Part shown: positions 43,570 through 60,140 of the stretch, one piece after another | How positions within the stretch are numbered: the first letter of the stretch is position 1 | Layout of the letters: every line of letters begins with the position of its first letter | DNA from: Jannaschia sp. Os4 | GTDB lineage: Bacteria > Pseudomonadota > Alphaproteobacteria > Rhodobacterales > Rhodobacteraceae | Direction: 5' to 3' | Length of the DNA: 64,000 bases | NCBI RefSeq assembly: GCF_016820245.1 | Contig: NZ_JAFCAR010000003.1 | Coordinates: 267,001-331,000 of the forward strand | Translations under genes and position numbers: made by a program | The notes under the pieces: generated by a model | Database searches by the model: none | Seen by the model: the letters and a program-made list of their open reading frames with translations, nothing else | Told to the model about the DNA's origin: nothing

Positions 43570-45630
43570 ATGACCACCTCCATCGTCCTGGACCCGCTCC
43601 TGCCGCTCTGGCTGGTGATTGGCCTCGCCGCGCTGGCCGCCGCCATCGTCGTGCTGACGCTGTGGCGCCGCTCGCCGGGCTGGTGGCTGCGGCTGGGCTC
43701 GCTCGCCGTGCTGCTGGCCGCGCTGCTGAACCCCTCGCTCCAGTCCGAGGAGCGCGAGGCGCTTTCGGACATCCTCCTCGCCGTGGTGGACCGCTCGGCG
43801 TCGCAGACGCTCTCGGATAGGACCGAGCAGACCGACGCCGCTCTCGCCGCCTTGGAGGCCGAGGCGGAGGACGCGGGGCTGGACCTGCGCGTCACGACCG
43901 TGCGCGACGACCCGACCGGGACGCTGGCGATGGCCGCCCTGTCGGAACTCTTGGCCGAGGTGCCGCGCGACCGGGTGGCGGGCGCCGTGATCGTCTCGGA
44001 CGGGCGGGTGGCCGACGCGGGCCTCGCGCCCGACCTCCCCGCGCCGCTGCACCTGCTGCGCACCGGGCGCACCGGCGACTGGGACCGCCGCCTCGTGGTG
44101 TCGAACGCCCCGGCCTTCGCCATCCTCGACGAGGAGTTCACCATCACCTTGGAGGTGGAGGACCAAGGCGCGGCCCCGGGCGACCTGACGACGCCGATCA
44201 CCGTCTCCGTCGACGGGGGCGAGCCGCAGACCTACGAGATGCCCATCGGGCGGCCCCTCGACCTGCCGCTCGCGCTGCCCCACGGGGGGCGCAACGTCAT
44301 CGAGTTCACCATCCCCGAGGCCGAGGGCGAGCTGACGGCGCGCAACAACGCCGCCGTGGTCCAGATCAACGGGGTGCGCGACCGGCTGCGCGTGCTTCTC
44401 GTCTCGGGCGAGCCGCATCCCGGCCAGCGGACGTGGCGCAACCTGCTCAAGGCCGACTCGGCGGTGGACCTCGTGCACTTCACGATCCTGCGCCCGCCGG
44501 GCAAGCAGGACGGGGTGCCCGTGACCGAGCTGTCGCTGATCGCCTTCCCGACGCGGGAGCTGTTCATCGACAAGATCGACGAGTTCGACCTCATCATCTT
44601 CGACCGCTACCAGCGGCGCGGCATCCTGCCGGGGATCTACCTCGACAACGTGCGGCGCTACGTCGAGGACGGCGGCGCGGTGCTGATCGCCGCCGGGCCG
44701 GACTTCGCCACCGCCGATTCGCTCTACCGCTCCCCGCTCGCGCCGGTGCTGCCGGGCTCGCCCTCCTCGATCCTGCTGGAGGGGCCGTTCCAGCCGCAGG
44801 TCAGCGAGACGGGCGACCGCCACCCGGTGACCTCCGGTCTCGACCTGCAGCAGCCCGAGGACGAATGGGGCCGCTGGTTCCGGCAGGTGCAGGTCAAGCC
44901 CTCGCCCACCGCCCAGGAGGTGATGACCGGCTACGAGGACGAGCCGCTCCTGCTGCTCGACCGCGTCGGCCCGGTGCCCGAGGCGCAGGGGCGCGTGGCG
45001 CTGCTGGCGTCGGACCACGCGTGGCTGTGGGACCGGGGCTTCGAGGGCGGCGGCCCGCAGGCGGAGCTCCTGCGCCGCGTGGCCCATTGGCTGATGAAGG
45101 AGCCCGACCTCGAGGAGGAGGCGCTGCTCGCCACGGCGCTCGGGCAGGAGATCACGGTCGTGCGGCGAACGTTGGGCGACGCGCCCGGCGCGGTGACGGT
45201 GACGGCTCCGGACGGGATGGAGTCGGTGCTGGCGTTGTCGGAGACCGGCCCCGGCCAGTTCAGCGCGACCGTCGACGCGGACCAGCAGGGGCTGTGGCGC
45301 TTCGAGGAGGGCGAGCGGACGACGGTGATCGGCCTCGGCCCGCCCGCGCCGGCCGAGTTCGTGGAGACGGTGGCGACCGACGCGGTGCTGGCCGACGCCG
45401 TGGCCACGCGGCGGGGCGGGGCGATCGCGCTGGAGGCGGGGGCGCCCGACCTCCGGCCGGTGGCCGAGGGGCGCGCCGCCGCCGGGCGCGGCTGGATCGG
45501 CTACGTCCCGCGCGAGGCCTACCTCCTCGCGGACCTGCGCCTGACCCCGCTGGCGCCCGCATGGGTCATGCTCCTCCTCGCCGCGCTGCTCGCCGTCGGC
45601 GCGTGGCTGCGCGAGGGTCGGCGGACCTGA
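43570..45630 (+). CDS. Large membrane protein of the MoxR cluster, GATase-like periplasmic part
   Basis: A 686-residue protein. Two N-terminal helices (about residues 10-32 and 38-53), a vWA-like stretch (ILLAVVDRSASQTLSD), a beta-rich part, then a class I GATase-like domain at about residues 275-450 (VRDRLRVLLVSGEPHPGQRTWRNLLKADSAVDLVHF, EFDLIIFDRYQRRGILPGIYLDNVRRYVEDGGAVLIAAGPDF). One C-terminal helix (VMLLLAALLAVGAWL). No catalytic GATase cysteine is seen, so it is likely non-enzymatic. Starts four bases after the DUF4159 gene. Last gene of the operon. Confidence 0.87.
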   Translation: MTTSIVLDPLLPLWLVIGLAALAAAIVVLTLWRRSPGWWLRLGSLAVLLAALLNPSLQSEEREALSDILLAVVDRSASQTLSDRTEQTDAALAALEAEAEDAGLDLRVTTVRDDPTGTLAMAALSELLAEVPRDRVAGAVIVSDGRVADAGLAPDLPAPLHLLRTGRTGDWDRRLVVSNAPAFAILDEEFTITLEVEDQGAAPGDLTTPITVSVDGGEPQTYEMPIGRPLDLPLALPHGGRNVIEFTIPEAEGELTARNNAAVVQINGVRDRLRVLLVSGEPHPGQRTWRNLLKADSAVDLVHFTILRPPGKQDGVPVTELSLIAFPTRELFIDKIDEFDLIIFDRYQRRGILPGIYLDNVRRYVEDGGAVLIAAGPDFATADSLYRSPLAPVLPGSPSSILLEGPFQPQVSETGDRHPVTSGLDLQQPEDEWGRWFRQVQVKPSPTAQEVMTGYEDEPLLLLDRVGPVPEAQGRVALLASDHAWLWDRGFEGGGPQAELLRRVAHWLMKEPDLEEEALLATALGQEITVVRRTLGDAPGAVTVTAPDGMESVLALSETGPGQFSATVDADQQGLWRFEEGERTTVIGLGPPAPAEFVETVATDAVLADAVATRRGGAIALEAGAPDLRPVAEGRAAAGRGWIGYVPREAYLLADLRLTPLAPAWVMLLLAALLAVGAWLREGRRT

Positions 45631-45714
45631 TCGCTCCAATCCGACGGGCCGAGAGGCTTGCGAACCGTCCGCCCTCCGGCCACCCTCCCCCCGTCGCGGC
45701 GCGCAGGTGAAGGT

Positions 45715-45747
45715 TGCACTAAAGTGCCCCTCGTGCGCTATCATGCC
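45715..45747. promoter_or_regulatory. Candidate BoxR/BzdR-type operator, first TRAP operon
   Basis: TGCA-N6-TGCC at 45715-45728 and TGCG-N6-TGCC at 45734-45747. Half-sites start at 45715, 45725, 45734 and 45744, i.e. 10, 9 and 10 bases apart. A TTGCAC (45714-45719) and TATCAT (45739-45744) overlap the sites and could be the promoter (spacing 19), so a bound protein would repress. The same layout occurs before benzoate-CoA ligase and boxC. Confidence 0.55.
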
Positions 45748-45779
45748 GCAACCATGTCTCGACAGGGAGGAGAGACCCC

Positions 45780-46829
45780 ATGACCACCCGGAGAGCGCTG
45801 CTCGCCGCCGCCGCGTCCCTGACGCTGGCCCCCGCCGCCTTCGCGCAGGAGGTGACGCTCAAGCTGCACCAGTTCCTGCCCGCGCAGGCCAACGTGCCGA
45901 AGCTCGTCCTCGACGTCTGGGCCGACAACGTCGAGGCCGCCTCCGAGGGCCGCATCGAGGTGGAGCGCTACCCGTCCATGCAGCTGGGCGGCGTGCCGCC
46001 GGAGCTGATCGACCAAGCCGCCGACGGCGTGGCCGACGTGGTCTGGACCGTGGTCGGCTACACGCCCGGCCGCTTCCCCACGACCGAGGTGTTCGAGCTG
46101 CCCTTCATGGTGGGCGACGCCCGCGCCGCCTCCTACGCCTACTGGAACATGTTCGAGGAGGAGATGCAGGAGGAGTTCTCCGACGTGCACATCGTCGGCA
46201 CGTGGGTGCACGGGCCCGGCATGTTCCACACCGCCGATCCGGTGAACGTGCCCGCCGACCTCGAGGGGATGAAGATCCGCGGCGGCTCCCGCCTCGTGAA
46301 CCAGCTGCTCGAGCTGACCGGCGCCGAGCCGATCGGGATGCCCGTCCCCGCCGTGCCGGAGGGCCTGTCCAAGGGCGTGATCGACGGGACCACCATCCCG
46401 TGGGAGGTGACCGCCGCCCTGAAGATCCCCGAGTTGGTGGAGTATCACACCGAGTTCGAGGGCAACGCGCTCTACACGCTGACCTTCGTGCTGGCGATGA
46501 ACAAGGGCGTCTACGAGGGGCTCTCGGACGAGAACAAGGCCGCCATCGATTCGGTGTCCGGGCAGGCCTTCTCGATCTACGCGGGCGGCACGCAGGCCGA
46601 CGCGGACGGCCCCGCCCGTCAGGCGGCGGTCGACAACGGCAACGAGATCATCACCGTCTCCTCCGCCGACGCCGAGGCGTGGGCCGAGACGGTGCAGCCG
46701 ATCTACGACACGTGGATCGCCGAGATGTCCGAGCGCGGCAAGGACGGGCAGGCCCTGATCGACCGCGCCAAGGCGCTGATGGCCGAGTACGACCCGTCGC
46801 TCGACAGCTACGAGGCCCTGTCGAACTGA
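45780..46829 (+). CDS. TRAP transporter substrate-binding protein (DctP type), first TRAP system
   Basis: A 349-residue periplasmic receptor. Signal peptide is about residues 1-22 (RRALLAAAASLTLAPAAFA). The mature DctP fold has LKLHQFLPAQANVPKLVLDVWADNVE, YPSMQLGGVPPELIDQAADGVADVVW, and GLSKGVIDGTTIPWEV, with the Arg of MKIRGGSRLVNQ expected to bind a carboxylate. It is followed by its two permeases. The promoter carries box-like operators, so aromatic acids such as benzoate are reasonable ligands (inference). Ribosome site GGGAGGAGAGA. Confidence 0.92.
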   Translation: MTTRRALLAAAASLTLAPAAFAQEVTLKLHQFLPAQANVPKLVLDVWADNVEAASEGRIEVERYPSMQLGGVPPELIDQAADGVADVVWTVVGYTPGRFPTTEVFELPFMVGDARAASYAYWNMFEEEMQEEFSDVHIVGTWVHGPGMFHTADPVNVPADLEGMKIRGGSRLVNQLLELTGAEPIGMPVPAVPEGLSKGVIDGTTIPWEVTAALKIPELVEYHTEFEGNALYTLTFVLAMNKGVYEGLSDENKAAIDSVSGQAFSIYAGGTQADADGPARQAAVDNGNEIITVSSADAEAWAETVQPIYDTWIAEMSERGKDGQALIDRAKALMAEYDPSLDSYEALSN

Positions 46830-46848
46830 TCCCCGTCGGGATCGACCG

Positions 46849-46870
46849 GGGCACCCCTGCGGGGGTGCCC
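46849..46870 (+). terminator. Hairpin between TRAP binding protein and permease genes
   Basis: Arms 46849-46857 and 46862-46870 pair perfectly (9 bp, 4-base loop), followed by TTCGCTTG. Probably a partial terminator or stabilising structure that keeps binding-protein message above permease message. Confidence 0.55.
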
Positions 46871-46892
46871 TTCGCTTGAGGGGGGACGCGGG

Positions 46893-47468
46893 ATGCACCG
46901 GGCGGTGACCGGACTGGCGGTGGCGATGGCATGGGCCGGGGGGCTGATGCTGGTCGCGCTGATCGGGCTGACCTGCGCGTCCATCCTCGGGCGCGAGTTG
47001 AACGAGGTGGCGCAGGGGATGTCCGATGGCCCGCTGCGCGGCCTCCTGCTCGACACGCTGGGCGTGGGGGCAATCAACGGCGACTTCGAGCTCCTCGAGG
47101 CCGGCATCGCCTTCGCGATCTTCGCCTTCCTGCCGCTGGCCCACGTCACAGGCGCGCACGCCTCCGTCGACATCTTCGCCGACCGCTTCGGCCCCCGCAC
47201 CGACCGCGCCGCGCGCGCGCTGACCGAGGTGGTGTTCGCCGCCGTGCTCGTGCTCATCGCGGTGCAGCTCTGGGGCGGGCTGGAGAGCAAGCTCCGCTCG
47301 GGCCAGACGACGCTGCGGCTGCAGTTCCCGCTCTGGTGGTCCTACGCCCTCGCCATGGTGCCCGCCGCGCTGGCCGCCCTCGTGGCCTGCTGGATGGCCG
47401 CGATGCGCCTCCGGGAGATGGTCGCGGGCCGCGCGATCCTGCCCGCCGCCGAGGGGGCGGACCATTGA
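46893..47468 (+). CDS. TRAP transporter small permease (DctQ type), first TRAP system
   Basis: A 191-residue inner-membrane protein with four hydrophobic helices, as expected for DctQ. LEAGIAFAIFAFLPLAHVTGAHASVDIFADRFGPRTDRAARAL contains the typical G-H-x-xVD block. It pairs with the large permease whose TTG start overlaps its stop (TTGA). The ATG at 46893 follows GAGGGGGGACGCGGG. Confidence 0.9.
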   Translation: MHRAVTGLAVAMAWAGGLMLVALIGLTCASILGRELNEVAQGMSDGPLRGLLLDTLGVGAINGDFELLEAGIAFAIFAFLPLAHVTGAHASVDIFADRFGPRTDRAARALTEVVFAAVLVLIAVQLWGGLESKLRSGQTTLRLQFPLWWSYALAMVPAALAALVACWMAAMRLREMVAGRAILPAAEGADH

Positions 47469-48994
47469 GCGACGTCGCCGTCGGCCTGATCAGCTTCCCG
47501 GCGCTGCTGGCCCTGATCTTCCTTCGCGTGCCCATCGGGCTCGCCATGTTCGTCACCGGCCTCGTCGGCCTGGTCGTCGTGACCGGGGACACGACCGTCC
47601 CCTTCGGACGGCTCAAGTCCGAGACATACACGACCTTCTCCAACTACTCGCTCTCGATCATCCCCATGTTCCTGCTGATGGGCCACTTCGCCACGCTGGG
47701 CGGGATGTCCCAAGCCCTGTTCAAGGCCGCCGAGGGCTTCCTCGGCCACCGCAAGGGCGGGGTGGCGATGGCGAGCGTGGGCGCCTGCGCGGGGTTCGGC
47801 GCGATCTGCGGCTCGTCGCTGGCGACGGCGGCCACCATGAGCCGCGTGGCCCTGCCCGAGATGCGGCGCTACGGCTACGACGGGGGCTTCTCGACGGCGA
47901 CGCTGGCCGCCGGGGGCACGCTGGGCATCCTGATCCCGCCCTCGGTCATCCTCGTGATCTACGCGATCCTCACCGAGCAGAACATCGCCAAGCTCTTCCT
48001 CGCGGCCTTCGTCCCCGGCGTGCTCGCCGCGCTGGGCTACGTGCTGGCCATCTCCGTCTACGTCCGGATCAACCCGCACGCGGCGGGCACCCGCCCCCGC
48101 GTCCCATGGGGCGAGCGGATGCGCGCGCTGCTCGCCGTGTGGCCGGTGCTGGTGGTCTTCCTCGTGGTGGTCGGCGGCATCTACGGCGGCCTCTTCACCC
48201 CCACGGAGGGCGCCGCCGTGGGCGCGCTCGGCACCGGCCTGATCGCCTTGGCCAATCGCGGCCTCACGTGGCGCAGCTTGGGCGAGAGCTTCGTGGTCAC
48301 CGGCAAGTCCACCGCGATGATCTTCTTCATCGTGCTGGGTGCCGCCTTCTACAACGGCTTCCTCGCGCTGACCGGCGTGCCGCAGGGCATCGCCGCGTGG
48401 GTCGCCGACTCCGGCTTCGCGCCGCTGATGGTCATCGTGGTGATCCTCGCCTTCTACCTGCTGCTCGGCTGCGTGATGGACAGCCTGTCGATGATCCTCC
48501 TGACGATCCCGATCTTCTGGCCCGTGGTGCAGGGGCTGGAGTTCGGCTTCGTGTCCTTGGCCGAGCTGCACGCCCACGCCGCCGCGCCGGTGCTGGCCGA
48601 GATCGAGGCCGCGCTGGCCGCCGGGGTCGCGCCCCCCGTCGAGGTGGCCGCCGACATGCTCGCCTCCATCAAGGACACGCTGGCCGCGGGCGGCGAGCTG
48701 GCGCGCGAGCAGGTCCGCGCGCTGGAGCTGCGGCGCGTGAACCAAGCGGCGGTCAACCGCATCAACGCCGAGCAGGTCGCGATCTGGTTCGGCATCCTCG
48801 TGCTGATCGTGGTCGAGGTCGGCCTCATCACGCCGCCGGTCGGCATGAACCTCTTCGTCATCAACGCCATGGACCGCGAGACGCCGATGACCGCGACCTA
48901 CCGCGCGGTGCTCTACTTCGTCGGCAGCGACCTGATCCGCGTGGCGCTCTTGGTCGCGTTCCCGGCCATTGTGCTCTTCGTCCTGCCGTGGTGA
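47465..48994 (+). CDS. TRAP transporter large permease (DctM type) with a long insertion, first TRAP system
   Basis: A 509-residue polytopic permease. DctM proteins are usually near 430 residues. Conserved parts are GLISFPALLALIFLRVPIGLAMFVTGLVG, CGSSLATAATMSRVALPEM, IPPSVILVIYAILTEQNIAKLFLAAFVPG, GCVMDSLSMILLTIPIFWPVV and ITPPVGMNLFVINAM. The extra length is a helical, Ala/Glu-rich stretch at about residues 362-435, between IFWPVVQGLEFGF and IWFGILVLIVVEVG. The start is a TTG overlapping the DctQ stop; no better start is near. Secondary (Na+- or H+-coupled) importer of an organic acid. Confidence 0.9.
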   Translation: MSDVAVGLISFPALLALIFLRVPIGLAMFVTGLVGLVVVTGDTTVPFGRLKSETYTTFSNYSLSIIPMFLLMGHFATLGGMSQALFKAAEGFLGHRKGGVAMASVGACAGFGAICGSSLATAATMSRVALPEMRRYGYDGGFSTATLAAGGTLGILIPPSVILVIYAILTEQNIAKLFLAAFVPGVLAALGYVLAISVYVRINPHAAGTRPRVPWGERMRALLAVWPVLVVFLVVVGGIYGGLFTPTEGAAVGALGTGLIALANRGLTWRSLGESFVVTGKSTAMIFFIVLGAAFYNGFLALTGVPQGIAAWVADSGFAPLMVIVVILAFYLLLGCVMDSLSMILLTIPIFWPVVQGLEFGFVSLAELHAHAAAPVLAEIEAALAAGVAPPVEVAADMLASIKDTLAAGGELAREQVRALELRRVNQAAVNRINAEQVAIWFGILVLIVVEVGLITPPVGMNLFVINAMDRETPMTATYRAVLYFVGSDLIRVALLVAFPAIVLFVLPW

Positions 48995-49000
48995 GGGTAG

Positions 49001-49046
49001 CGCATCGCAGGGCCGTGGCGCGGCGATCTTCGCCCTGCGCGATGCG
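49001..49046 (+). terminator. Bulged hairpin after first TRAP operon
   Basis: Left arm 49001-49013 pairs with 49032-49046 except for a two-base bulge (49037-49038), followed by GTTTATCTC. It lies 7 bases past the large-permease stop and may end the operon. The U-tract is weak. Confidence 0.5.
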
Positions 49047-49184
49047 GTTTATCTCTCACCCCTGCACAACGCCCATGCGTCGCGGTACCGTTGAAGGATC
49101 GCCGTGCCGGGGGACGGCCCGGCGATGCGCGGCTCGGCTGCGCCTCGCGTTCCGCGCGGGTGCATCGCTCAAGAGGAATCTCGC

Positions 49185-49949
49185 ATGAACATCGAAGGCA
49201 TCGGCGCGATCGTCGTGGGCGGCGGCAGCGGCCTCGGCGCCGCCACGGCCCGCCACCTCGCCGAGCGCGGCGCGGACGTCACCGTGGTCGACCGCGACGG
49301 CGACCGCGCCGCGCAGGTCGCCGCCGAGGTGCTGGGCCATTCCGTGCAGGCCGACGTCTCCGTCGCCGAGGAGGTCGCCGCCGCCGTCACGACCGCGATG
49401 GCCCGCTTCGGGCAGGCCCCGCGCCTCGCGGTGAACTGCGCGGGCATCGCGGACGCCGCGCGGATCGTGGGCCGCGAGGGCAAGACCTCCGTGCCGCTCT
49501 TCCGCCGGGTGATCGAGGTGAACCTCATCGGCACCTACAACGTCATGTCCTACGCCGCCCAAGGCATGATGGACCTGCCCCCCTTGGAGACGGGCGAGCG
49601 CGGCGTGATCGTGAACACCGCCTCCATCGCCTACGAGGACGGGCAGATGGGCCAGACCGCCTATGCCGCCTCCAAGGGCGGGGTCGCGGCCATGTCGCTG
49701 CCCGCCGCCCGCGAGATGGCGCGGATGGGCGTCCGGGTCTGCGCCATCGCGCCCGGCCTGTTCGAGACGCCGATGATGGCAGGCCTGCCCGAGGACGTGG
49801 TGGCGGGCATCACCGCCAACGTGCAGTTCCCGCCCCGCCTCGGCGCGCCCGAGGAATACGCGAGGCTCGTCGCCCATATCGCCGAGAACTCCTATCTCAA
49901 CGGCGAGACGATCCGCCTCGACGGGGCGACCCGACTGCCCCCGCGCTGA
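49185..49949 (+). CDS. SDR-family oxidoreductase, 3-hydroxyacyl-CoA dehydrogenase type
   Basis: A 254-residue SDR close to type II (HSD17B10-like) 3-hydroxyacyl-CoA dehydrogenases. The nucleotide motif is AIVVGGGSGLGAATARHLAERGADVTVVDRD (NAD type, Asp after strand 2). The NNAG equivalent is VNCAG, and the active site Ser/Tyr/Lys are in VNTASIAYEDGQMGQTAYAASKGG. It may oxidise a beta-hydroxy acyl-CoA in the lower box pathway. Ribosome site AAGAGGAATCTCGC before the ATG at 49185. It lies between the first TRAP operon and the ligase operon. Confidence 0.9.
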   Translation: MNIEGIGAIVVGGGSGLGAATARHLAERGADVTVVDRDGDRAAQVAAEVLGHSVQADVSVAEEVAAAVTTAMARFGQAPRLAVNCAGIADAARIVGREGKTSVPLFRRVIEVNLIGTYNVMSYAAQGMMDLPPLETGERGVIVNTASIAYEDGQMGQTAYAASKGGVAAMSLPAAREMARMGVRVCAIAPGLFETPMMAGLPEDVVAGITANVQFPPRLGAPEEYARLVAHIAENSYLNGETIRLDGATRLPPR

Positions 49950-49958
49950 AACCGGAGG

Positions 49959-50001
49959 TGCACGATAGTGCATCTTCAGGAAAACGTTGCATCATCCTGC
50001 C
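49959..50001. promoter_or_regulatory. Candidate BoxR/BzdR-type operator, benzoate-CoA ligase operon
   Basis: TGCA-N6-TGCA at 49959-49972 is exact. A second TGCA-N6-TGCC at 49988-50001 lies 29 bases on. Half-sites start at 49959, 49969, 49988 and 49998. TTGCAT (49987-49992) followed 16 bases later by TACGCT (50009-50014) could be the promoter, overlapped by the second pair. The site sits in a short gap between the SDR stop and the ligase ATG. Confidence 0.6.
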
Positions 50002-50054
50002 ACATGGCTACGCTGAACCCGTCCGGGCCGGGGAGGGTCCGGCGGGAGGATGCC

Positions 50055-51596
50055 ATGCAGAACGCGAACGCCGCCGTCTGGCTGCTGGATCGCCATTCCG
50101 AGGAGGGCCGCGCCGACAAGACCGCCTTCCGCGAGGTGGGCGAGGGTGCGGGCCGGACCGTCACCTACGGGGACCTGAAGCACCGCTCGGCCATCGTCGC
50201 GGGCGCGCTGCGCCGGGCCGGGCTGCACCGGGAAGAGCGGGTGGCCTGCCTCGTGCTCGACCAGATCGAGTATCCCGCCCTCTTCTTCGGCGCGCTCAAG
50301 GCCGGGGTGGTGCCGGTCCTGCTCAACACGCTGCTCGCCCCCGACATCTACCGCACGATCCTCGCCGACTGCCGCGCCGCGATGCTCGTCGTCTCGGCGC
50401 CGCTCTTCGACCTCGTCCGCCCGATCCTCGGCGACCTCGCGGACCTGCGCGCCGTGGTCGTCATCGGCGACGCGCCCGCGGGGACCGTCCCGTGGGACGC
50501 CTTCCTCGACGGGGCCGAGCCGACGGAGGCGATCCCCGCCCGCGCCGACGAGGGGGCCTTCTGGCTCTACTCCTCCGGCTCGACCGGCGCGCCCAAGGGC
50601 GTGCGCCACGTCCACGGCGCGCTGCGGGCGACCGCCGAGACCTACGGCGCGCAGGTGCTCGGCCTGCGCGAGGACGACGTGGTCCATTCGGCGGCCAAGA
50701 TCTTCTTCGCCTACGGCCTCGGCAACGCGGTGACCTTCCCGATGGCGGTCGGCGCGACGACGCTGCTGAACCCCGGACGGCCCACCCCGGACGGGGTGCT
50801 CGACATCATCGCGCGCGAGGGGCCGACGGTCTATTGCGGCGTCCCCACCCTCTACGCCGCCACGCTGGCGCGCATGGCCGAGCGGGGGGTGCCGCCGGGC
50901 CGGATGCGCCTGTGCATCTCGGCGGGCGAGGCGCTGCCCTCGGACGTCGGCACGCGCTGGCTCGACGCATGGGGAGTCGACATCCTCGACGGGGTCGGCA
51001 GCACCGAGATGCTGCACATCTTCCTGTCCAACCGCCCCGGCGACGTCGAGTACGGCACCTCGGGCACGGCGGTGCCGGGCTACGACCTGCGGCTGGTGGA
51101 CGAGGGCGGGGCCGACGTGACCGGGCCGGACGAGGTGGGCGAGCTGCTGGTCCGCGGCGCCTCGGCGGCGGACGGCTACTGGAACCAGCGGGGCAAGAGC
51201 CGCGCCACCTTCGAGGGTGAGTGGACGCGCACCGGCGACAAGTACGTCCGCCGCGCCGACGGGCGCTACGTCTACTGCGGGCGCACCGACGACATGCTCA
51301 AGGTCTCGGGCATCTGGGTCTCGCCCTTCGAGGTGGAGCAGGCGCTCTGCGCCCACCCCGCCGTGCTGGAGGCCGCCGTCGTGGGCCGCGACGACGGCAC
51401 GGGCCTCACCAAGCCCGCCGCCTTCGTCGTCCTGCGGGACCGGTCGCTGGCCGAGGGCCTGGACCGCGCGCTGAAGGACCACGTCAAGGACCGCATCGGC
51501 AAGTTCAAGTATCCCCGCTGGGTCGAGGTCGTGGACGACCTGCCCAAGACCGCGACGGGCAAGATCCAGCGCTTCAAGCTCCGCGCCCCGGCGTGA
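50055..51596 (+). CDS. bclA: Benzoate-CoA ligase
   Basis: A 513-residue acyl-adenylating enzyme that forms benzoyl-CoA from benzoate, ATP and CoA. The AMP-binding P-loop is WLYSSGSTGAPKGVRHVH (about residues 173-190), followed by HSAAKIFFAYGLGNAVTFPM, which is characteristic of benzoate-CoA ligases. The A8 loop is YVYCGRTDDMLKVSGIWVSPFEVE and the catalytic C-terminal lysine is in KTATGKIQRFKLR. The ATG at 50055 follows GCGGGAGGA; the upstream frame extension is not used. Overlaps the next gene's GTG (GTGA). First committed step for the boxCBA genes downstream. Confidence 0.93.
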   Translation: MQNANAAVWLLDRHSEEGRADKTAFREVGEGAGRTVTYGDLKHRSAIVAGALRRAGLHREERVACLVLDQIEYPALFFGALKAGVVPVLLNTLLAPDIYRTILADCRAAMLVVSAPLFDLVRPILGDLADLRAVVVIGDAPAGTVPWDAFLDGAEPTEAIPARADEGAFWLYSSGSTGAPKGVRHVHGALRATAETYGAQVLGLREDDVVHSAAKIFFAYGLGNAVTFPMAVGATTLLNPGRPTPDGVLDIIAREGPTVYCGVPTLYAATLARMAERGVPPGRMRLCISAGEALPSDVGTRWLDAWGVDILDGVGSTEMLHIFLSNRPGDVEYGTSGTAVPGYDLRLVDEGGADVTGPDEVGELLVRGASAADGYWNQRGKSRATFEGEWTRTGDKYVRRADGRYVYCGRTDDMLKVSGIWVSPFEVEQALCAHPAVLEAAVVGRDDGTGLTKPAAFVVLRDRSLAEGLDRALKDHVKDRIGKFKYPRWVEVVDDLPKTATGKIQRFKLRAPA

Positions 51597-52390
51597 CCTG
51601 GGCCCCGGAGCGCATCGACGGGCTGGAGGTCGCCGCATGGGGTCCGCCCCCGGCGCAGGCGCCGACGCTGGTGCTGCTGCACGAGGGGCTGGGCTCGGTG
51701 GGCCTGTGGCGCGACTGGCCGGACGCCCTCGTGGCGGCGACGGGGCTGGGCGCGCTCGCCTACTCCCGCGCGGGGCACGGGCGATCGGTCCCCCACGACG
51801 GTCCGCGCGACGCGAGCCGGTTCGAGGCCGAGGCCGCGCGGGTCCTGCCCGCCGTGCTGGACGGCGCGGGCGTGGGCCGCTGCATCCTCCTCGGCCACTC
51901 CGACGGCGCGACCATCGCCGCGCTCCACGCGGGCCGGGTGGCCGACCCCCGCGTCCGGGGGCTGATCCTCGTCGCCCCGCACTTCTTCGCCGAACCCGAG
52001 GGGCTGTCGGCCATCGCCGCCACGAAGCGCGCCTTCGACGGGGGCGACCTGCGGTCCCGCATGGCCAAGCACCACGACGATCCCGACGCGGCCTTCGGCG
52101 GCTGGGCGGGCACGTGGCTGGACCCGGCCTTCGCGGACTGGGACGTCACCGACGCCATCGACCACTGGCGCATCCCCGCGCTGGTGATCCAAGGCGACGC
52201 CGACCCCTACGGCTCCCTCGCCCATCTGGAGGCGACGGAGGCGCGCAGCTACGCCCCCGTCGAGCGGCTGGTGCTGCCGGGCGTCGGCCACGCCCCGCAC
52301 CACGAGGCCCGGGATGCCACGACCGGCGCCGTCGCCGCCTTCTGCGCCCGGCTCATGGCGATGGAGGCGCGCCCGGGTGCCCCCGCCTGA
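51593..52390 (+). CDS. Alpha/beta hydrolase
   Basis: A 265-residue alpha/beta hydrolase. The oxyanion region is LVLLHEGLGSVGLWRDWP, the nucleophile elbow is ILLGHSDGATIAALHA (Ser about residue 103), the Asp is in ALVIQGDADPYG, and the His in VLPGVGHAPHHEA. Similar hydrolases occur in aerobic benzoyl-CoA clusters, where they may cleave a stalled CoA ester or lactone; this role is inference. GTG start at 51593 overlaps the ligase stop. Confidence 0.9.
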   Translation: MTWAPERIDGLEVAAWGPPPAQAPTLVLLHEGLGSVGLWRDWPDALVAATGLGALAYSRAGHGRSVPHDGPRDASRFEAEAARVLPAVLDGAGVGRCILLGHSDGATIAALHAGRVADPRVRGLILVAPHFFAEPEGLSAIAATKRAFDGGDLRSRMAKHHDDPDAAFGGWAGTWLDPAFADWDVTDAIDHWRIPALVIQGDADPYGSLAHLEATEARSYAPVERLVLPGVGHAPHHEARDATTGAVAAFCARLMAMEARPGAPA

Positions 52391-52796
52391 CCCGCTCGAC
52401 GGCTGGCGCCCGCCGCATGCCTACGTGCCGGGACGCACGGCGCGGCACCCCGAGGGGATGTTCGACCACCTCAAGCGGACCGACGGCCCGCCCGGATCGA
52501 CGCTCGCATGGCGGGCGGGGCTCGCGCTGATGGCGGAGGGCTACTTCTGGGAGGCGCACGAGGTCTGGGAGGCGCTGTGGCTGGCACAGCCGCCGGCGGG
52601 GGCCGAGGCCGTCGCCGTCCGCGCGGCGATCCAAGCGGCGAATGCCGGGCTGAAGGCGCGGATGGGGCAGGGGAAGGCGGCCCGCCGCCTCGCCGCGATC
52701 GCCGCCGACCTGCGCGCGGAAGCGGCCCGCCGGGGAGCGACCCTGCAGGTTCCGGGAGAGATCTCGCCCGAGGTTATGCATCATAATGCAAAATAG
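52377..52796 (+). CDS. DUF309-family protein
   Basis: A 139-residue helical protein. GYFWEAHEVWEALWLAQPPAGAEAVAVRAAIQAANAGLK (about residues 55-93) is the DUF309 core, with the conserved F-E-HE-WE pattern. Family function is unknown. A GTG at 52377 overlaps the hydrolase gene by 14 bases and fits the chain of coupled genes. The last residues (MHHNAK) and the stop codon lie inside the boxC operator. Confidence 0.85.
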   Translation: MPPPDPLDGWRPPHAYVPGRTARHPEGMFDHLKRTDGPPGSTLAWRAGLALMAEGYFWEAHEVWEALWLAQPPAGAEAVAVRAAIQAANAGLKARMGQGKAARRLAAIAADLRAEAARRGATLQVPGEISPEVMHHNAK

Positions 52797-52808
52797 CACA
52801 ATCATGCA
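52777..52808. promoter_or_regulatory. Candidate BoxR/BzdR-type operator, boxCBA
   Basis: TGCA-N6-TGCA at 52777-52790 is exact; a weaker AGCA-N6-TGCA lies at 52795-52808. Half-sites start 10, 8 and 10 bases apart. The region is strikingly AT-rich. A possible -35/-10 pair (TTATGC, 52774-52779; CACAAT, 52797-52802) overlaps it, so binding would block transcription. The boxC ATG is 58 bases downstream. Confidence 0.6.
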
Positions 52809-52865
52809 TATTCTTCCTTGATCGAGGGAGAGGGGGCCGGTAGGCCCGAACGCGGAGGAGACCCC

Positions 52866-54515
52866 ATGTCCGATCGCATCGACTTCCAGACCGACCCCTC
52901 GCGCTACCGCCACTGGCGCACGGAGGTGGAGGGCCCGGTGGCCACCGTCTGGATGGACGTCGACGAGGACGCGGGCCTGTTCGAGGGCTACCAGCTCAAG
53001 CTCAACAGCTACGACCTCGGCGTCGACATCGAGCTCAACGACATCGTGCAGCGGATGCGGTTCGAGCACCCGGAGGTCCGCGCCGTCGTCCTGCGCTCCG
53101 CCAAGGACAAGGTGTTCTGCGCGGGCGCCAACATCCGGATGCTGGGCGGCGCGAAGCACTCCCACAAGGTCGGGTTCTGCAAGTTCACCAACGAGACCCG
53201 CAACGCCTACGAGGCGGCCGAGGCGGAGTCCGGCCAGACGTGGATCGCCGCGATCCAAGGGGCCTGCGCGGGCGGGGGCTACGAGCTGGCGCTGGCCTGC
53301 AACCACCTGATGCTGGTGGACGACCGGACGTCGTCCGTGTCGCTGCCGGAGGTGCCGCTGCTCGCCGTGCTGCCGGGTACCGGTGGGCTGACGCGGGTGA
53401 CGGACAAGCGGCACGTCCGCCGCGACCGGGCCGATGTGTTCTGCTCGACCGAGGAGGGGATCAAGGGCGCGCGCGCCGTGGAATGGGGCCTCGTCGACGA
53501 GGCGGTGGGCAACAACCGCTTCGACGAGACGGTGGCCGAGCGGGCGGCGGAGATCGCCGGACGCGCCCCCCGCGAGGCGGAGGGCGTGGAGATGACCCCG
53601 TTGGACCGGACGTTCACCCCGGACGGGGTCGAGTACTCGACCGTCTCGGTGAAGGTGCTGCGCGACGCGGGCCGGGTCGAGATCACCGTGCGCGGGCCGG
53701 AGGGCGACGCCCCCGCCGACGCCGCCGCGCTGCACGCCGAGGGCGCGGCCGCGTGGCTGATGCGCTGCGCGCGGGAGGTGGAGGACGCGATCCTGCACCT
53801 GCGGATGAACGAGATGGAGTGCGGCCTCTGGGTGCTGCGGACCGAGGGCGACGCGGCCAAGGTCGCCGCCCACGAGGCGGTCATGCTCGGGTCGGACCAC
53901 TGGTTCGCGGTGGAGCTGCGCCACTACTGGAAGCGCGTGCTCAAGCGGCTCGACGTGACCTCGCGGTCGATCATCGCGCTGGTCGAGAACGGCGGCGCGT
54001 GGGCCGGGATGCTGGCCGAGATGATCTGGGCCGCCGACCGCGCCTACATGATGGAGGGCGCGTTCGAGGACGACGACCGCCCCGAGGCGGCGATCCTGCC
54101 GACGGAGGGCAACCTCGGCGCCTACCCGATGGGCAACGACCTCACCCGTCTGCGGACGCGGTTCTGGGGCGACGACGATGCGGTCGCCGCCGCCGAGGCG
54201 TCCGCGGGCGAGGCGCTGGACGCGGAGCGCGCGGACGAGCTGGGCCTCGTCACCATGATCCTCGACGACATCGACTGGGAGGACGAGGTGCGCATCGTGC
54301 TGGAGGAGCGCGCCAGCTTCTCCCCCGACGCGATGACGGGGATGGAGGCGAACCTGCGCTTCGCCGGCCCCGAGACGATGGAGACGCGCATCTTCGGGCG
54401 CCTGACGGCGTGGCAGAACTGGATCTTCAACCGTCCCAACGCCGTGGGCAAGGACGGGGCGCTGCAGCGCTACGGCTCGGGCGTGAAGGGCGATTTCGAC
54501 ATGGAGCGCGTCTAG
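52866..54515 (+). CDS. boxC: Benzoyl-CoA-dihydrodiol lyase (2,3-epoxybenzoyl-CoA dihydrolase)
   Basis: BoxC opens the ring of 2,3-epoxybenzoyl-CoA hydrolytically, releasing formate and 3,4-dehydroadipyl-CoA semialdehyde. The 549 residues match the usual 550 or so. It is an extended crotonase: VRAVVLRSAKDKVFCAGANIRMLGG and AAIQGACAGGGYELALACNHLMLVDDR form the CoA-binding and oxyanion segments, and SLPEVPLLAVLPGTGGLTRVTDKRHVRRD is specific to BoxC. The C-terminal half has the second crotonase-like module. Ribosome site GCGGAGGAGACC. First gene of boxC-boxB-small ORF-boxA, driven by the TGCA-rich promoter. Confidence 0.96.
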   Translation: MSDRIDFQTDPSRYRHWRTEVEGPVATVWMDVDEDAGLFEGYQLKLNSYDLGVDIELNDIVQRMRFEHPEVRAVVLRSAKDKVFCAGANIRMLGGAKHSHKVGFCKFTNETRNAYEAAEAESGQTWIAAIQGACAGGGYELALACNHLMLVDDRTSSVSLPEVPLLAVLPGTGGLTRVTDKRHVRRDRADVFCSTEEGIKGARAVEWGLVDEAVGNNRFDETVAERAAEIAGRAPREAEGVEMTPLDRTFTPDGVEYSTVSVKVLRDAGRVEITVRGPEGDAPADAAALHAEGAAAWLMRCAREVEDAILHLRMNEMECGLWVLRTEGDAAKVAAHEAVMLGSDHWFAVELRHYWKRVLKRLDVTSRSIIALVENGGAWAGMLAEMIWAADRAYMMEGAFEDDDRPEAAILPTEGNLGAYPMGNDLTRLRTRFWGDDDAVAAAEASAGEALDAERADELGLVTMILDDIDWEDEVRIVLEERASFSPDAMTGMEANLRFAGPETMETRIFGRLTAWQNWIFNRPNAVGKDGALQRYGSGVKGDFDMERV

Positions 54516-54538: not shown

Positions 54539-55981
54539 ATGCTGGACGTGGAATACGACACCCGGATCCCCAACAACGTGGGGCTGGGGCAGGACCGCAA
54601 GGTGCTCAAGGCCCTCGAGAAGTGGCACCCGGGCTACCTCGACTGGTGGAACAGGCTGATCCCCCAGAACTTCCAGGAGTCGATGGTCTACCTGCGGACC
54701 GCCGTCTCGGTGGACCCCAAGGGCTGGGCCAAGTTCGACTACGTGAAGATGCCCGACTACCGCTGGGGCGTGCTGCTCGCCCCCCAGGTCGAGAACCGCG
54801 TGATCCCCATGGGCGAGCACAAGGGCGAGGCCGCGTGGCAGGAGGTGCCGGGCGAGTATCGCAACATGCTCAAGCGCCTGATCGTCATCCAAGGCGACAC
54901 GGAGCCGGGCTCGGTCGAGCAGCAGCGCTTCCTCGGGCTCACCGCGCCGTCGCTCTACGACATGCGCAACCTGTTCCAAGTGAACGTGGAGGAGGGCCGC
55001 CACCTCTGGGCGATGGTCTACCTGCTGCAGAAGTACTTCGGGAAGGACGGGCGCGAGGAGGCGGACGACCTGCTGCGCCGCTCGTCGGGCTCGGACGAGG
55101 CGCCGCGGATGCTGGGCGCCTTCAACGAGGAGACGCCCGACTGGCTGTCCTTCTTCATGTTCACATACTTCACCGACCGCGACGGCAAGATGCAGCTGGA
55201 GTCCTTGGCGCAGTCGGGCTTCGACCCGCTGTCGCGCACCTGCCGCTTCATGCTGACCGAGGAGGCGCACCACATGTTCGTCGGCGAGACGGGCGTGGGG
55301 CGCACCATCCAAGCGACCTGCGAGGCGATGGCCCGCGCGGGCATCACGGACCCGCACGACGTGGGCCGCATCCGCGACATGGGCGTCATCGACCTGCCCA
55401 CCATCCAGAAGAAGCTGAACCTGCACTATTCGCTGTCGCTGGACCTGTTCGGCAACGAGGTGTCAACCAACGCGGCCAACGCCTTCAACGCGGGCATCAA
55501 GGGCCGCTACATGGAGCACCGGATCGACGACGACCACCAGCTGCGCGACGCGACCTACGTGGTGAAGTCGGTCGTGGACGGGCGCATCGTCGACGAGGAG
55601 GTGCCCGCGCTGACGGCGATCAACATGCGCCTGCGCGACGACTACGTGCGCGACGCGTCGGGCGGCGTGGGCCGCTGGAACAAGGCCATCAAGAAGGCCG
55701 GGATCGACTTCGAGCTGGCGCTCCCGCACGAGGCGTTCCACCGCCAGATCGGCGTGTTCTCGGCCATCGCGGCGACGCCGGAGGGCGACCTGATCTCCAA
55801 GGAGGAGTTCGCCCGCCGCCGCGACGAGTGGTTGCCGTCCAAGGAGGACGGCGACTACATCACCTCGCTCATGGTGCCCTGCTACGAGCCGGGCGAGTTC
55901 GCCTCGTGGATCGCGCCGCCCAAGGTCGGCATCGACAACAAGCCGGGCGACTTCGAGTACGTGAAGCTGCACATGGCGTGA
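54539..55981 (+). CDS. boxB: Benzoyl-CoA 2,3-epoxidase subunit BoxB
   Basis: The diiron oxygenase component that epoxidises benzoyl-CoA. 480 residues, close to the Azoarcus enzyme. Diiron ligands by motif are NVEEGRHLWAMV (E152 and H155) and LTEEAHHMFVGE (E241, H244). Sequence blocks NNVGLGQDRKVLKALEKWHPGYLDWWNRLIP and EVSTNAANAFNAGIKGRYME are BoxB-specific. It receives electrons from BoxA. GGGAGGACGATC precedes the ATG. A hairpin follows its stop before the small ORF and boxA. Confidence 0.97.
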   Translation: MLDVEYDTRIPNNVGLGQDRKVLKALEKWHPGYLDWWNRLIPQNFQESMVYLRTAVSVDPKGWAKFDYVKMPDYRWGVLLAPQVENRVIPMGEHKGEAAWQEVPGEYRNMLKRLIVIQGDTEPGSVEQQRFLGLTAPSLYDMRNLFQVNVEEGRHLWAMVYLLQKYFGKDGREEADDLLRRSSGSDEAPRMLGAFNEETPDWLSFFMFTYFTDRDGKMQLESLAQSGFDPLSRTCRFMLTEEAHHMFVGETGVGRTIQATCEAMARAGITDPHDVGRIRDMGVIDLPTIQKKLNLHYSLSLDLFGNEVSTNAANAFNAGIKGRYMEHRIDDDHQLRDATYVVKSVVDGRIVDEEVPALTAINMRLRDDYVRDASGGVGRWNKAIKKAGIDFELALPHEAFHRQIGVFSAIAATPEGDLISKEEFARRRDEWLPSKEDGDYITSLMVPCYEPGEFASWIAPPKVGIDNKPGDFEYVKLHMA

Positions 55982-56208: not shown

Positions 56209-57405
56209 ATGAAGGACACGGCCCCGATCAAGCAGCATCTCATCGACCCCGAGATCTGCATCCGCTGCTACACCTGCGAGATGACCTGCCCGATCGACGC
56301 GATCGAGCACGACGACGACAACGTCGTGGTGGACCCGGACGTCTGCGACGGCTGCATGGCCTGCATCCCCGTCTGCCCCACCGGCTCGATCGACGAGTGG
56401 CGGGTGGTCGAGACGCCCTACACCTTGGAGCAGCAATACGGCTGGGACGAGCTGCCCGAGCAGGAGGACATCGTCCTCGACGCGGCCCCCGGCGCGGACG
56501 AGGCGCTCGACGGCGCGATGGCCGCGCTCCTCGCCGAGGCCCATGCGGGCGCCGGCGGCAAGCCCAAGGCCCCGGTGACCGCGGCCAAGCCTTCGATCAA
56601 CCTCTACAACCTCGGCAAGCCGGCGGTCGCCAAGGTGATCGGCAACCACCGCCTGACCGACGATCCCGACCACGACGTGCGCCACGTGATCCTCGACTTC
56701 GGCGCGCAGCCGATGCCCGTGCTCGAGGGGCAGTCCGTCGGGATCATCCCGCCAGGCGAGGACGCCGACGGCAACCCGCACCTCCCGCGCCTCTACTCGG
56801 TCAGCAGCCCGCGCGACGGGGAGCGGTCGAACTACAACTTCGTCTCGCTCACGGTGAAGCGAGACGTGCACGAGGGCGGGGGCGGCGTCTGCTCCAACTA
56901 CCTCTGCGACCTCGAACTGGGCGACGAGGTCCGCGTCACCGGCCCGTTCGGCGGCACGTTCCTGATGCCCGACGACCGCGACGCGCCGCTCCTGATGATC
57001 TGCACCGGCACCGGCTCCGCCCCGATGCGCGCCTTCACCATGCGCCGCCAGCGGACGGGCCGGGGCGCGGGGCGGATGACGATGTTCTTCGGCGCCCGCA
57101 CCCCCGACGCGCTCCCCTATTTCGGACCGCTGAAGAAGGTGCCCGCCGACCTCTTGGAGCAGCACCTCGTCTACTCCCGGACGGAGGCGAAGGAATACGT
57201 GCAGGACCGGATGCGCGCCGAGGCGGAGCGCGTGGCCGAACTGCTCCAGGACGCGCGCACCCATGTCTACGTCTGCGGCCTGAAGGGCATGGAGGAGGGG
57301 GTGGAGGCCGCCTTCACCTCCATCGCGGAGTCGATCGGCGAGCCGTGGGGCGCGTTGCGCGACCGGATGCGCGACGAGGGGCGCTATCACGTCGAGACCT
57401 ACTGA
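56209..57405 (+). CDS. boxA: Benzoyl-CoA 2,3-epoxidase reductase subunit BoxA
   Basis: Reductase that passes electrons from NADPH to BoxB. 398 residues. Two 4Fe-4S motifs: CIRCYTCEMTCP (about residues 17-28) and CDGCMACIPVCP (about residues 46-57). After an acidic linker comes a ferredoxin-NADP reductase-like module: RLYSVSSPRDG (FAD), VCSNYLCDL, GPFGGTFLMP, MICTGTGSAPMRAF (NADP) and VYVCGLKGMEEGV. The ATG at 56209 is preceded by a duplicated ATGAAGGACACG at 56195-56206 that opens a five-codon ORF ending on this ATG; expression may be coupled. Confidence 0.96.
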   Translation: MKDTAPIKQHLIDPEICIRCYTCEMTCPIDAIEHDDDNVVVDPDVCDGCMACIPVCPTGSIDEWRVVETPYTLEQQYGWDELPEQEDIVLDAAPGADEALDGAMAALLAEAHAGAGGKPKAPVTAAKPSINLYNLGKPAVAKVIGNHRLTDDPDHDVRHVILDFGAQPMPVLEGQSVGIIPPGEDADGNPHLPRLYSVSSPRDGERSNYNFVSLTVKRDVHEGGGGVCSNYLCDLELGDEVRVTGPFGGTFLMPDDRDAPLLMICTGTGSAPMRAFTMRRQRTGRGAGRMTMFFGARTPDALPYFGPLKKVPADLLEQHLVYSRTEAKEYVQDRMRAEAERVAELLQDARTHVYVCGLKGMEEGVEAAFTSIAESIGEPWGALRDRMRDEGRYHVETY

Positions 57406-57406
57406 G

Positions 57407-57826
57407 GTGGCGGACGGCTTCGTCCACGAGATCCGCGTCGGCTGGGGCGACTGCGACCCGGCGCGGATCGCCTACACGGGCCACCTGCCGGGCTTCGCGC
57501 TGCGCGCCATCGACGCGTGGTGGGAATGGGCGCTGGAGGCGCCAGGCGGCTGGTATCACATGGAGATCGACCGCGGCTTCGGCACGCCCTTCGTGGCGAT
57601 GCGGCTCGACTTCCGCGCGCCCGTCACCCCGCGCCACCCTCTGCTCTGCCACGTCCGGCCCACCCGCCTCGGGACGACCTCCGTGTCGTTCCGCGTCGAC
57701 GCGCGGCAGGACGGGCGGACCTGCTTCGAGGGGGAGTTCACCTGCGTCTTCGTCGAGGGCGGGACGCTGGAGAAGCGGACCCCGCCCGAGGACGCGGCGG
57801 CGGCGATCCGGGCGCACCTGCCTTAG
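57407..57826 (+). CDS. Hotdog-fold acyl-CoA thioesterase, 4-hydroxybenzoyl-CoA type
   Basis: A 139-residue thioesterase. VGWGDCDPARIAYTGHLPGFALRAIDAWWEW (about residues 10-40) has the Asp (GDCDPA) that is catalytic in the Pseudomonas-type 4-hydroxybenzoyl-CoA thioesterase. GTG start two bases after the boxA stop. In box clusters such enzymes are thought to release CoA from dead-end benzoyl-CoA derivatives. Last gene of the boxC operon; a possible new promoter lies before the next TRAP gene. Confidence 0.92.
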   Translation: MADGFVHEIRVGWGDCDPARIAYTGHLPGFALRAIDAWWEWALEAPGGWYHMEIDRGFGTPFVAMRLDFRAPVTPRHPLLCHVRPTRLGTTSVSFRVDARQDGRTCFEGEFTCVFVEGGTLEKRTPPEDAAAAIRAHLP

Positions 57827-57829
57827 CCG

Positions 57830-57859
57830 TTGACCCCCGGCCGTCCCGCGGTCCTACTG
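57830..57859 (+). promoter_or_regulatory. Possible sigma-70-like promoter before second TRAP permeases
   Basis: TTGACC (57830-57835) with CTACTG (57854-57859) after an 18-base spacer. The -10 match is weak. Similar to the element at 59780-59809. Confidence 0.3.
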
Positions 57860-57879
57860 CGCCGAAAGGGAGGGACGCG

Positions 57880-58464
57880 ATGGGGGCGCTGGTCGGCGCG
57901 GTCCGGGCCTTGGGCGCGGTGAACGGGGGCCTGCTCGCCGCGGGGCGGGGCGTCGGCATCGTGTTCATGGCGATCATGGTGGCCTGCATCCTCGTGCAGG
58001 TGTTCTGGCGCTACGTCCTCGACAACCCGCTCCCGTGGCCGGAGGAGGCCGCCCGCTTCTTCATGCTCTGGATGACCGGCCTCGTGGCGCCGACCGCGCT
58101 GCGGCGGGGGGGCTTCGTGGCCATCGACATGATCCAGCTCGCGCTGCCCCGCGTCGTGGGCGGGCTGCTGACGCTGGCCCTGCTGGTGCTGTCGCTGATC
58201 GTGCTGGTGATCGCCGTCCGGATCGGGTGGTCCGAGGTGACGGGCTTCTCGGGCCGGTTCAAGTCGTCCTCGCTCTACTACCTGTGGCTCGACGGGTGGG
58301 AGAAGATGCCCCGCTCGTGGATGATGGCGTCGCTGCTGGTGGGCCTCGTGCTGCTGGCCTCGGTCACGGTCGAGCTGATCCTGCGGCAGGTGGCGGTGAT
58401 CCTCGGCCGGGGCGAGGACCTGCCGGTCATCCCCGGCACCGAGATGGGCGTGGGGGCCGAATAG
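57880..58464 (+). CDS. TRAP transporter small permease (DctQ type), second TRAP system
   Basis: A 194-residue membrane protein with four helices. VFWRYVLDNPLPWPEEAARFFMLWMTGLVAPTALRRGGFVAIDMIQLALP is the typical DctQ signature with the PWPEE motif. Ribosome site AAAGGGAGGGA. It precedes the large permease by 17 bases. Its binding protein is likely the DctP gene at 62200-63267, separated by four intervening genes. Confidence 0.92.
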   Translation: MGALVGAVRALGAVNGGLLAAGRGVGIVFMAIMVACILVQVFWRYVLDNPLPWPEEAARFFMLWMTGLVAPTALRRGGFVAIDMIQLALPRVVGGLLTLALLVLSLIVLVIAVRIGWSEVTGFSGRFKSSSLYYLWLDGWEKMPRSWMMASLLVGLVLLASVTVELILRQVAVILGRGEDLPVIPGTEMGVGAE

Positions 58465-58481
58465 ATGCCCGGAGTGTCCCG

Positions 58482-59774: not shown

Positions 59775-59779
59775 GGGCG

Positions 59780-59809
59780 TTGACGGTCCGGTAACCCGGG
59801 CGCGCTAGG
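59780..59809 (+). promoter_or_regulatory. Possible sigma-70-like promoter before small membrane genes
   Basis: TTGACG (59780-59785) and GCTAGG (59804-59809) with an 18-base spacer, just before the ATG at 59818. Weak match. Same layout as the element at 57830-57859. Confidence 0.3.
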
Positions 59810-59817
59810 CCGGGGCC

Positions 59818-60024: not shown

Positions 60025-60140
60025 CCGCCGTGGAAATTCAGGTCGCGCTCATGGGGCTCGCCCTCATTCCCATCGCCCTGATCTGGGTGCGGTGGCTGGA
60101 CGCGGCCGACCGCAAGGCCCGCGACCGCCGCGACCGCTGA
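60021..60140 (+). CDS. Tiny single-helix membrane protein (39 residues)
   Basis: One helix (VALMGLALIPIALIWVRWL) followed by a charged tail rich in Arg and Asp (DAADRKARDRRDR). Overlaps the 68-residue gene by four bases (ATGA), which supports translation. Too short for family recognition. Such proteins are sometimes small subunits of membrane complexes. Confidence 0.55.
   Translation: MTAVEIQVALMGLALIPIALIWVRWLDAADRKARDRRDR

Follow-up and report, generated by a model that had tools for sequence, protein, structure and literature searches.

In a 64,000-nucleotide stretch of Jannaschia sp. Os4 DNA, which we call the window (G000:C3:267001-331000, that is, contig C3 of the analysed genome G000, 3.54 Mb in 10 contigs), paired TGCA-N6-TGC(A/C) sites stand ahead of a tripartite ATP-independent periplasmic (TRAP) transporter operon, a benzoate-CoA ligase operon and the gene boxC. 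Comparison with related sequences leads us to read these pairs as operators of BoxR, the repressor of the aerobic benzoyl-coenzyme A (benzoyl-CoA) or box pathway, with a probability of about 0.9. A preliminary description of the window had proposed that a single repressor of the BoxR/BzdR type, encoded elsewhere, controls all three promoters. This proposal is supported by the boxR gene, by the match of the motif to the published one and by the co-occurrence of sites and BoxR in relatives, with control of the TRAP operon being the least certain of the three.

Candidate operator pairs and the boxR gene

The six pairs of the preliminary description were all located, two at each promoter. Exact TGCA-N6-TGCA was present at 49959-49972 (ligase pair 1, TGCACGATAGTGCA) and at 52777-52790 (boxC pair 1, TGCATCATAATGCA), and TGCA-N6-TGCC at 45715-45728 (pair 1 of the TRAP promoter, ahead of dctP, TGCACTAAAGTGCC) and at 49988-50001 (ligase pair 2, TGCATCATCCTGCC). 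The two degenerate pairs were TGCG-N6-TGCC at 45734-45747 (TRAP pair 2, TGCGCTATCATGCC) and AGCA-N6-TGCA at 52795-52808 (boxC pair 2, AGCACAATCATGCA). As TGCA is self-complementary, the two half-sites of a pair form an inverted repeat and stand one helical turn apart. Palindromes of the form TGCA-N6-TGCA, several per promoter and upstream of benzoyl-CoA pathway genes, are what is expected of BoxR operators, and the motif agrees with the published BoxR/BzdR consensus ATGCACTATAGTGCAT, whose sites are nearly always multiple according to the sections available of PMC6449761. The placement of all pairs in gaps between genes held for the TRAP and ligase promoters and failed for boxC, where pair 1 falls within the final codons of a DUF309 frame (52314-52796, plus strand; PF03745, 54.9 bits) and pair 2 overlaps its stop. 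The coding end of this frame and the predicted boxC operator thus share the same DNA.

The pairs were scored with a matrix of 196 distinct 16-base sites from relatives, the own genome being excluded, and took ranks 1, 2, 3, 5, 6 and 8 over all positions of the window, a ranking that tests mainly the AT core, the flanks and the place of the sites, given that the training sites had been chosen by their TGCA pattern. The boxC pairs scored 26.4 (pair 1, rank 1) and 19.1 (pair 2, rank 3), the ligase pairs 21.5 (rank 2) and 14.2 (rank 6), and the TRAP pairs 16.8 (rank 5) and 10.0 (rank 8, the weakest of the six). Ranks 4 and 7 went to overlapping registers in the boxC promoter, at 52787 (17.7) and 52805 (12.2), and all eight window positions scoring at least 9.5 were inside the three promoters. 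Random windows (60, first-order) had a mean best score of 12.1, and positions reaching 14.2, the score of ligase pair 2, numbered 0.15 per random window on average vs 6 in the real one.

The repressor gene that the preliminary description had placed outside the window was found at G000:C1:445644-446504 (L020:9645-10505, minus strand), with the same site upstream. It is on contig C1, well away from the contig ends, and the box cluster is on C3. The encoded protein of 286 residues combines an XRE-type helix-turn-helix (HTH_3, 41.1 bits) with a shikimate-kinase-like C-terminal domain (SKI, 116.3 bits), and its score against NF006015, "anaerobic benzoate catabolism transcriptional regulator", was 361.4 bits (cut-off 204). 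Searching the genome for the SKI domain gave four matches, two of them strong, namely a shikimate kinase (148.8 bits) and C1:445698-446135 (117.9 bits), which lies within the longer boxR frame. The C-terminal domain keeps the Walker A motif, GLRGAGKST at residue 122, which is identical in 44 of 45 relatives' BoxR. At a position where three shikimate kinases (the own one and, from the same genus, L145 and L146) read D-S-D or D-T-D, the own BoxR reads E-L-N, with the N found in 41 of the 45 relatives' BoxR proteins, a hint that BoxR may have lost shikimate kinase activity.

The sequence TGCACTATCGTGCA occupies positions -34 to -21 relative to the boxR ATG, ending 20 bases short of the start codon, and consists of the same 14 bases as ligase pair 1 at 49959-49972, on the opposite strand. 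The gene is probably autoregulated through this site. Just after boxR stands a frame (G000:C1:444850-445647; L020:8851-9648, minus strand) whose GTG start, read by eye, overlaps the boxR stop. It matched the 3-hydroxyacyl-CoA dehydrogenase C-terminal domain weakly, with 26.9 bits over a cut-off of 22.1 and without any one significant stretch, and may encode a lower-pathway dehydrogenase co-transcribed with boxR.

Among named organisms, the nearest carriers of BoxR include Rhodosalinus, Mameliella and Sulfitobacter, and on this ground the family and class of the comparisons below are taken for Rhodobacteraceae and Alphaproteobacteria. Within the own genus boxC was present in G000 alone among 20 genomes, which may reflect either transfer into G000 or losses in the others, and the BoxR query found in the other 19 nothing above 61.5 bits vs 583.6 for the own protein, the family cut-off not being applied in this comparison. 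We read these weak matches as shikimate kinases plus short helix-turn-helix matches. One of the genus, G208, has a match over residues 25-278 with 32% identity and an internal stop.

Sites and BoxR in the family and the class

To relate the sites to the regulator we used 198 genomes of the family (f1, taken for Rhodobacteraceae), sampled at one per genus, in which BoxR and boxC were called above curated cut-offs. BoxR was found in 46, boxC in 45 and both in 43. The three with BoxR and no full boxC were G009 (boxC in two pieces), G119 (78% complete) and G078 (83%), and the two with boxC and no BoxR were G019 and G102. Sites were searched from 300 bp upstream to 20 bp inside each gene at up to one mismatch, with the own genome counted, and the reversed pattern, scored in the same stretches, served as control throughout.

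A site was present upstream of 42 of the 44 boxC genes, in 28 cases with exact TGCA at both ends (reversed control 1/44). The ligase gene had one in 29/41 (9 exact; control 1), boxR in 30/46 (4 exact; control 0) and dctP, the first gene of the TRAP operon, in 12/19 (none exact; control 1). Upstream stretches of a short-chain dehydrogenase/reductase (SDR) gene contained none (0/7; control 0), and the internal genes boxB and boxA had sites in 1/45 (control 0) and 2/43 (control 4). The only boxB match was in G080 (L136), with TGCAATATAATGCA at -201 and CGCATTATCATGCA at -99; there boxB stands apart from boxC and heads its own stretch, and boxB thus has sites only where it needs a promoter of its own. 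In the same genome (L136, L093) boxC and boxA are on one contig and boxB and boxR on another, the two contigs possibly adjoining, and strong BoxR-type sites stand at each part of the split cluster, boxB included.

At a score threshold of 16, two sites upstream of boxC were most frequent (24 of 43 genes; three sites in 13, one in 3, and none, four and five in 1 each), and for 40 ligase genes the numbers were two sites in 17, none in 15, one in 7 and three in 1. The spacings between sites in relatives (99, not independent of each other) cluster near whole helical turns, with vector lengths of 0.51, 0.31 and 0.41 for periods of 10.5, 10.0 and 11.0 bp, respectively, out of five tried. The boxR start is mostly about 4-6 kb from the boxC start in the family. 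The two are about 1 Mb apart in G148 and on different contigs in G153 and G169; in G080, G044 and G069 the boxR and boxC contigs may adjoin, as the genes are near contig ends.

The comparison was extended to the class, taken for Alphaproteobacteria, with 389 genomes of at least 95% completeness. boxC was present in 100 of them, 98 outside the family, and among these 98 BoxR was found in 61 and in none of the remaining 37; the stretch ahead of boxC was examined in 60 of the former and in all 37 of the latter. A boxC site at up to one mismatch was found in 53 of the 60 genomes with BoxR (34 exact) vs 2 of the 37 without it (0 exact), and the reversed control gave 2/60 and 1/37. When an AT, AA or TT centre was also required, the counts were 53/60 vs 1/37. 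The sites thus occur where the regulator occurs. Three families have members both with and without BoxR. Two of these, f49 and f53, fit this rule, and in f39 one BoxR-less member (G417) has no site and another (G347) has a good one. The preliminary description would have been refuted by a pattern equally common in unrelated promoters; for the promoters compared here, those of boxB, boxA and the SDR gene of the same loci and those of boxC in BoxR-less genomes, this was not the case.

Weighing the BoxR reading

By count alone the pattern is less telling than by place. Exact TGCA-N6-TGCA was found 3 times in the window vs 0.34 expected, a number reached in 0 of 100 shuffles, and TGCA-N6-TGC(A/C/G) 10 times vs 4.7 expected, reached in 3 of 100, so that the looser pattern by itself is only mildly unusual. 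The third exact match, at 57985-57998, was rejected as an operator, since it is inside the coding part of a second TRAP operon; its score is low, 8.2 (rank 10). A further one at C3:228718 was rejected too, being within a reading frame. What is unusual about the sites is their place, their pairing and their AT core. In a whole-genome scan, a check proposed in the preliminary description, the bare exact pattern occurred 25 times vs 28 for the reversed control, with no enrichment, and its genome-wide count was dropped as proof for that reason; mismatch-free TGCANNATNNTGCA occurred only 4 times in 3.54 Mb, upstream of boxR, ligase and boxC and once inside a frame that we label asparaginase-like from its translation. 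Likewise, 4 of the 7 genome-wide matches to TGCACTATAGTGCA at up to three mismatches were the boxR, ligase, TRAP and boxC promoters.

Besides this absence of enrichment and the restricted reach of the matrix ranking, several observations weigh against the pairs being BoxR operators. In the own genome, the reversed control exceeded TGCACTATAGTGCA at up to three mismatches (14 vs 7) and nearly equalled TGCANNATNNTGCA at up to one mismatch (31 vs 35). The maximum over the 60 random windows, 22.3 in one window, was above the own rank 2 (21.5), and by matrix score TRAP pair 2 (45734) and ligase pair 2 (49988) are weak. The own pair spacings of 19 (TRAP), 29 (ligase) and 18 (boxC) are mutually consistent and, unlike the family mode, 2-3 bp short of whole helical turns. 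A consensus sigma-70 scan of 45600-53000 gave no match, leaving an overlap of sites and promoters without support from the scan; the TTGCA of some operators might double as a -35 element, which is a guess by eye.

Exceptions among the relatives point in the same direction. The 30 of 46 boxR genes with a site include weak sites and one (L140) that is only within the gene start. In the family, two boxC promoters had no site: that of G102 (L131), one of the two boxC genomes lacking BoxR, and that of G188 (L119), where a two-mismatch site 122 bases upstream scores 22.5. In the class, 7 of the 60 genomes with BoxR had no boxC site at up to one mismatch. In two of these (G234 and G529) the site is instead upstream of boxR, which directly precedes boxC. 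Four of one genus (G429, G488, G540 and G587; L302-L305) had none at boxC or boxR; in all four, TGCA(C/T)TATA(T/C)TTCC, with two mismatches, is just upstream of boxR, and BoxR specificity has perhaps shifted in this genus, to judge by that motif. In the seventh, G267, no convincing site was seen. Conversely, BoxR was not found in G347 (L245), which has a BoxR-type site 51 bases upstream of boxC and whose sister G255 has BoxR. As the G347 assembly is in 440 contigs and 95% complete, boxR may be missing from it, or may have been lost recently. A broader sample of 34 named loci, many of them from beta- and gammaproteobacterial metagenome-assembled genomes and partly overlapping with the family sample, had sites at only 12 of 27 boxC starts (control 2), with 18/32 for boxR, 7/23 for ligase and 2/2 for dctP (controls 4, 1 and 0), a weaker rule that may reflect other operon layouts. 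Fisher tests of the class counts gave p = 5e-17 by genome and 5e-6 by family (24/25 families with BoxR vs 2/11 without), and these values overstate independence because shared ancestry remains in both.

The most serious alternative, which we still consider unlikely, concerns a single target: BoxR would act on boxC, the ligase and itself, the site at the TRAP operon being weak and incidental and the importer being under other control. The low scores of the two TRAP pairs (16.8 and 10.0) fit this, as do the lack of any exact site in the 19 dctP promoters and the 7 of them without a site even at one mismatch. Against it stand the other 12 of these 19 dctP promoters, which lie in box neighbourhoods: they have a site at up to one mismatch, vs 1/19 for the control, and five of the 12 have GGCAATATATTGCA or AGCAATATATTGCA at -67 to -71. 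The operon itself begins with dctP (45780-46829, plus strand) for the substrate-binding protein, which matched NF037995 with 96.6 bits and is very close to a chain of PDB 7nr2 (563 bits over residues 23-345). It continues with a small frame (46893-47468, plus strand), taken as dctQ by its position only, as the NCBIfam scan gave no match, and with a frame (46931-48994, plus strand) that has the large permease DctM in its C-terminal part (TIGR00786, 274 bits, best over residues 200-536). Benzoate would be the substrate of this importer. Uptake of 4-hydroxybenzoate by a TRAP system is reported in the available part of a Roseobacter study (PMC12442348), and the transporter class can thus serve aromatic acids.

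Judged by the sites themselves and by the distribution of BoxR, it is improbable that another regulator of aromatic catabolism, such as the AraC/XylS-type BenR, binds them. BenR/XylS sites (TGCA-N6-GGNTA) do have the TGCA-N6 half in common with ours, as far as the consulted portions of PMC6449761 and PMC6678401 describe them. Inspection by eye found the GGNTA second half in none of the six own pairs, the boxC promoters of the family largely have exact TGCA at both ends instead (28/44), and the presence of sites tracks BoxR across the class. Chance repeats in AT-rich promoter DNA, in keeping with a bare pattern as frequent as its reversal genome-wide, can practically be dismissed, as the reversed control is nearly absent from the very same boxC, ligase and boxR promoters (1/44, 1/41 and 0/46), 35 of 37 BoxR-less boxC promoters have no site and a matrix built from relatives only singles out the three promoters in 64 kb. 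Control by BoxR remains the reading that we adopt.

Proposed regulon and known systems

Following published work on BzdR and BoxR, from which binding, repression and release by benzoyl-CoA are carried over, control would most likely operate as follows. One inverted-repeat pair suits one BoxR dimer, so that two dimers would occupy each promoter and keep RNA polymerase from the TRAP importer, the ligase operon and boxCBA. BoxR would come from its unlinked gene, the site upstream of boxR limiting its own synthesis. Once formed by the ligase, benzoyl-CoA would bind to BoxR and thereby release all four promoters. The ligase gene (50055-51596, plus strand; TIGR02262, 728 bits) is followed, beyond a frame at 51595-52390 and the DUF309 frame, by boxC for 2,3-epoxybenzoyl-CoA dihydrolase (52866-54515, plus strand; TIGR03222, 914.6 bits) and by boxB (54542-55981, plus strand; TIGR03225, 900.8 bits) and boxA (56209-57405, plus strand; TIGR03224, 527.5 bits) for subunits of benzoyl-CoA 2,3-epoxidase.

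More broadly, we are inclined, by a small margin of confidence, to see BoxR of the Rhodobacterales as a single intracellular sensor of benzoyl-CoA that gates both uptake, through a dedicated benzoate TRAP importer, and breakdown. In the genome studied here, a self-controlled boxR would be uncoupled from its targets and the regulon joined by nothing but the sequence of its operators, in a genus of which the 19 other genomes examined showed neither boxC nor a full-length BoxR.

Other genes of the region have no convincing sites upstream. An SDR-family dehydrogenase gene (49185-49949, plus strand) without a site upstream lies between the TRAP and ligase operons, and a thioesterase-like gene and the second TRAP system follow boxA (57407-63267), the best upstream site score there being 8.2, in coding DNA. 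With best matrix scores of 8.2 for the second TRAP operon, 5.6 for the SDR gene and -3.5 for boxA, control of these by upstream sites of their own found no support and was rejected.

The outcome is a testable regulon and a BoxR motif for a whole bacterial class, supported by where the regulator occurs and where it is missing. The TRAP importer joins the list of likely BoxR targets, and the rule that the palindrome is present where BoxR is present offers a way to search other genomes for more genes under benzoyl-CoA control. No paper on Rhodobacterales BoxR sites or on a BoxR-controlled TRAP importer was seen among those listed in searches of the open-licence PubMed Central literature; one of those listed, PMC7284936, mentions TRAP, benzoate and boxA. 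BoxR, its motif and its role are already known, and the regulon described here adds a further, well-supported example to an established type of control, not a new type.

Among known systems, that of Azoarcus sp. CIB, with BzdR and the PN promoter (PMC6678401, PMC3602430, in the excerpts available), is alike in having an XRE plus shikimate-kinase-like regulator, benzoyl-CoA pathway genes as targets and several TGCA palindromes per promoter, with TGCA(N6)TGCA in two of the three operator regions of PN. However, PN drives the anaerobic bzd operon, whereas the Jannaschia target is the aerobic box pathway; PN has three operator regions, including TGCA-N15-TGCA, instead of two close pairs per promoter; and bzdR is immediately upstream, whereas the Jannaschia boxR is unlinked. 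The BenR/XylS operators, in the same portions of PMC6449761 and PMC6678401, share the TGCA half-site, the six-base spacer and the link to benzoate regulation, but they differ in the second half, GGNTA, and in the regulator, an AraC-type activator. The BoxR regulons of Betaproteobacteria, as presented in the accessible sections of PMC6449761, are alike in regulator family, in the main motif TGCA-N6-TGCA with core CTATAG, in having boxCBA and the ligase as targets and in their multiple sites, which were already described there as several turns apart. They differ in their divergent clusters with boxR inside. A boxR beside or within the box cluster is common and not essential, and in Jannaschia it is on another contig. 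They differ also in transport, as ABC and BenK transporters are named there and a TRAP importer is among the likely targets in Jannaschia.

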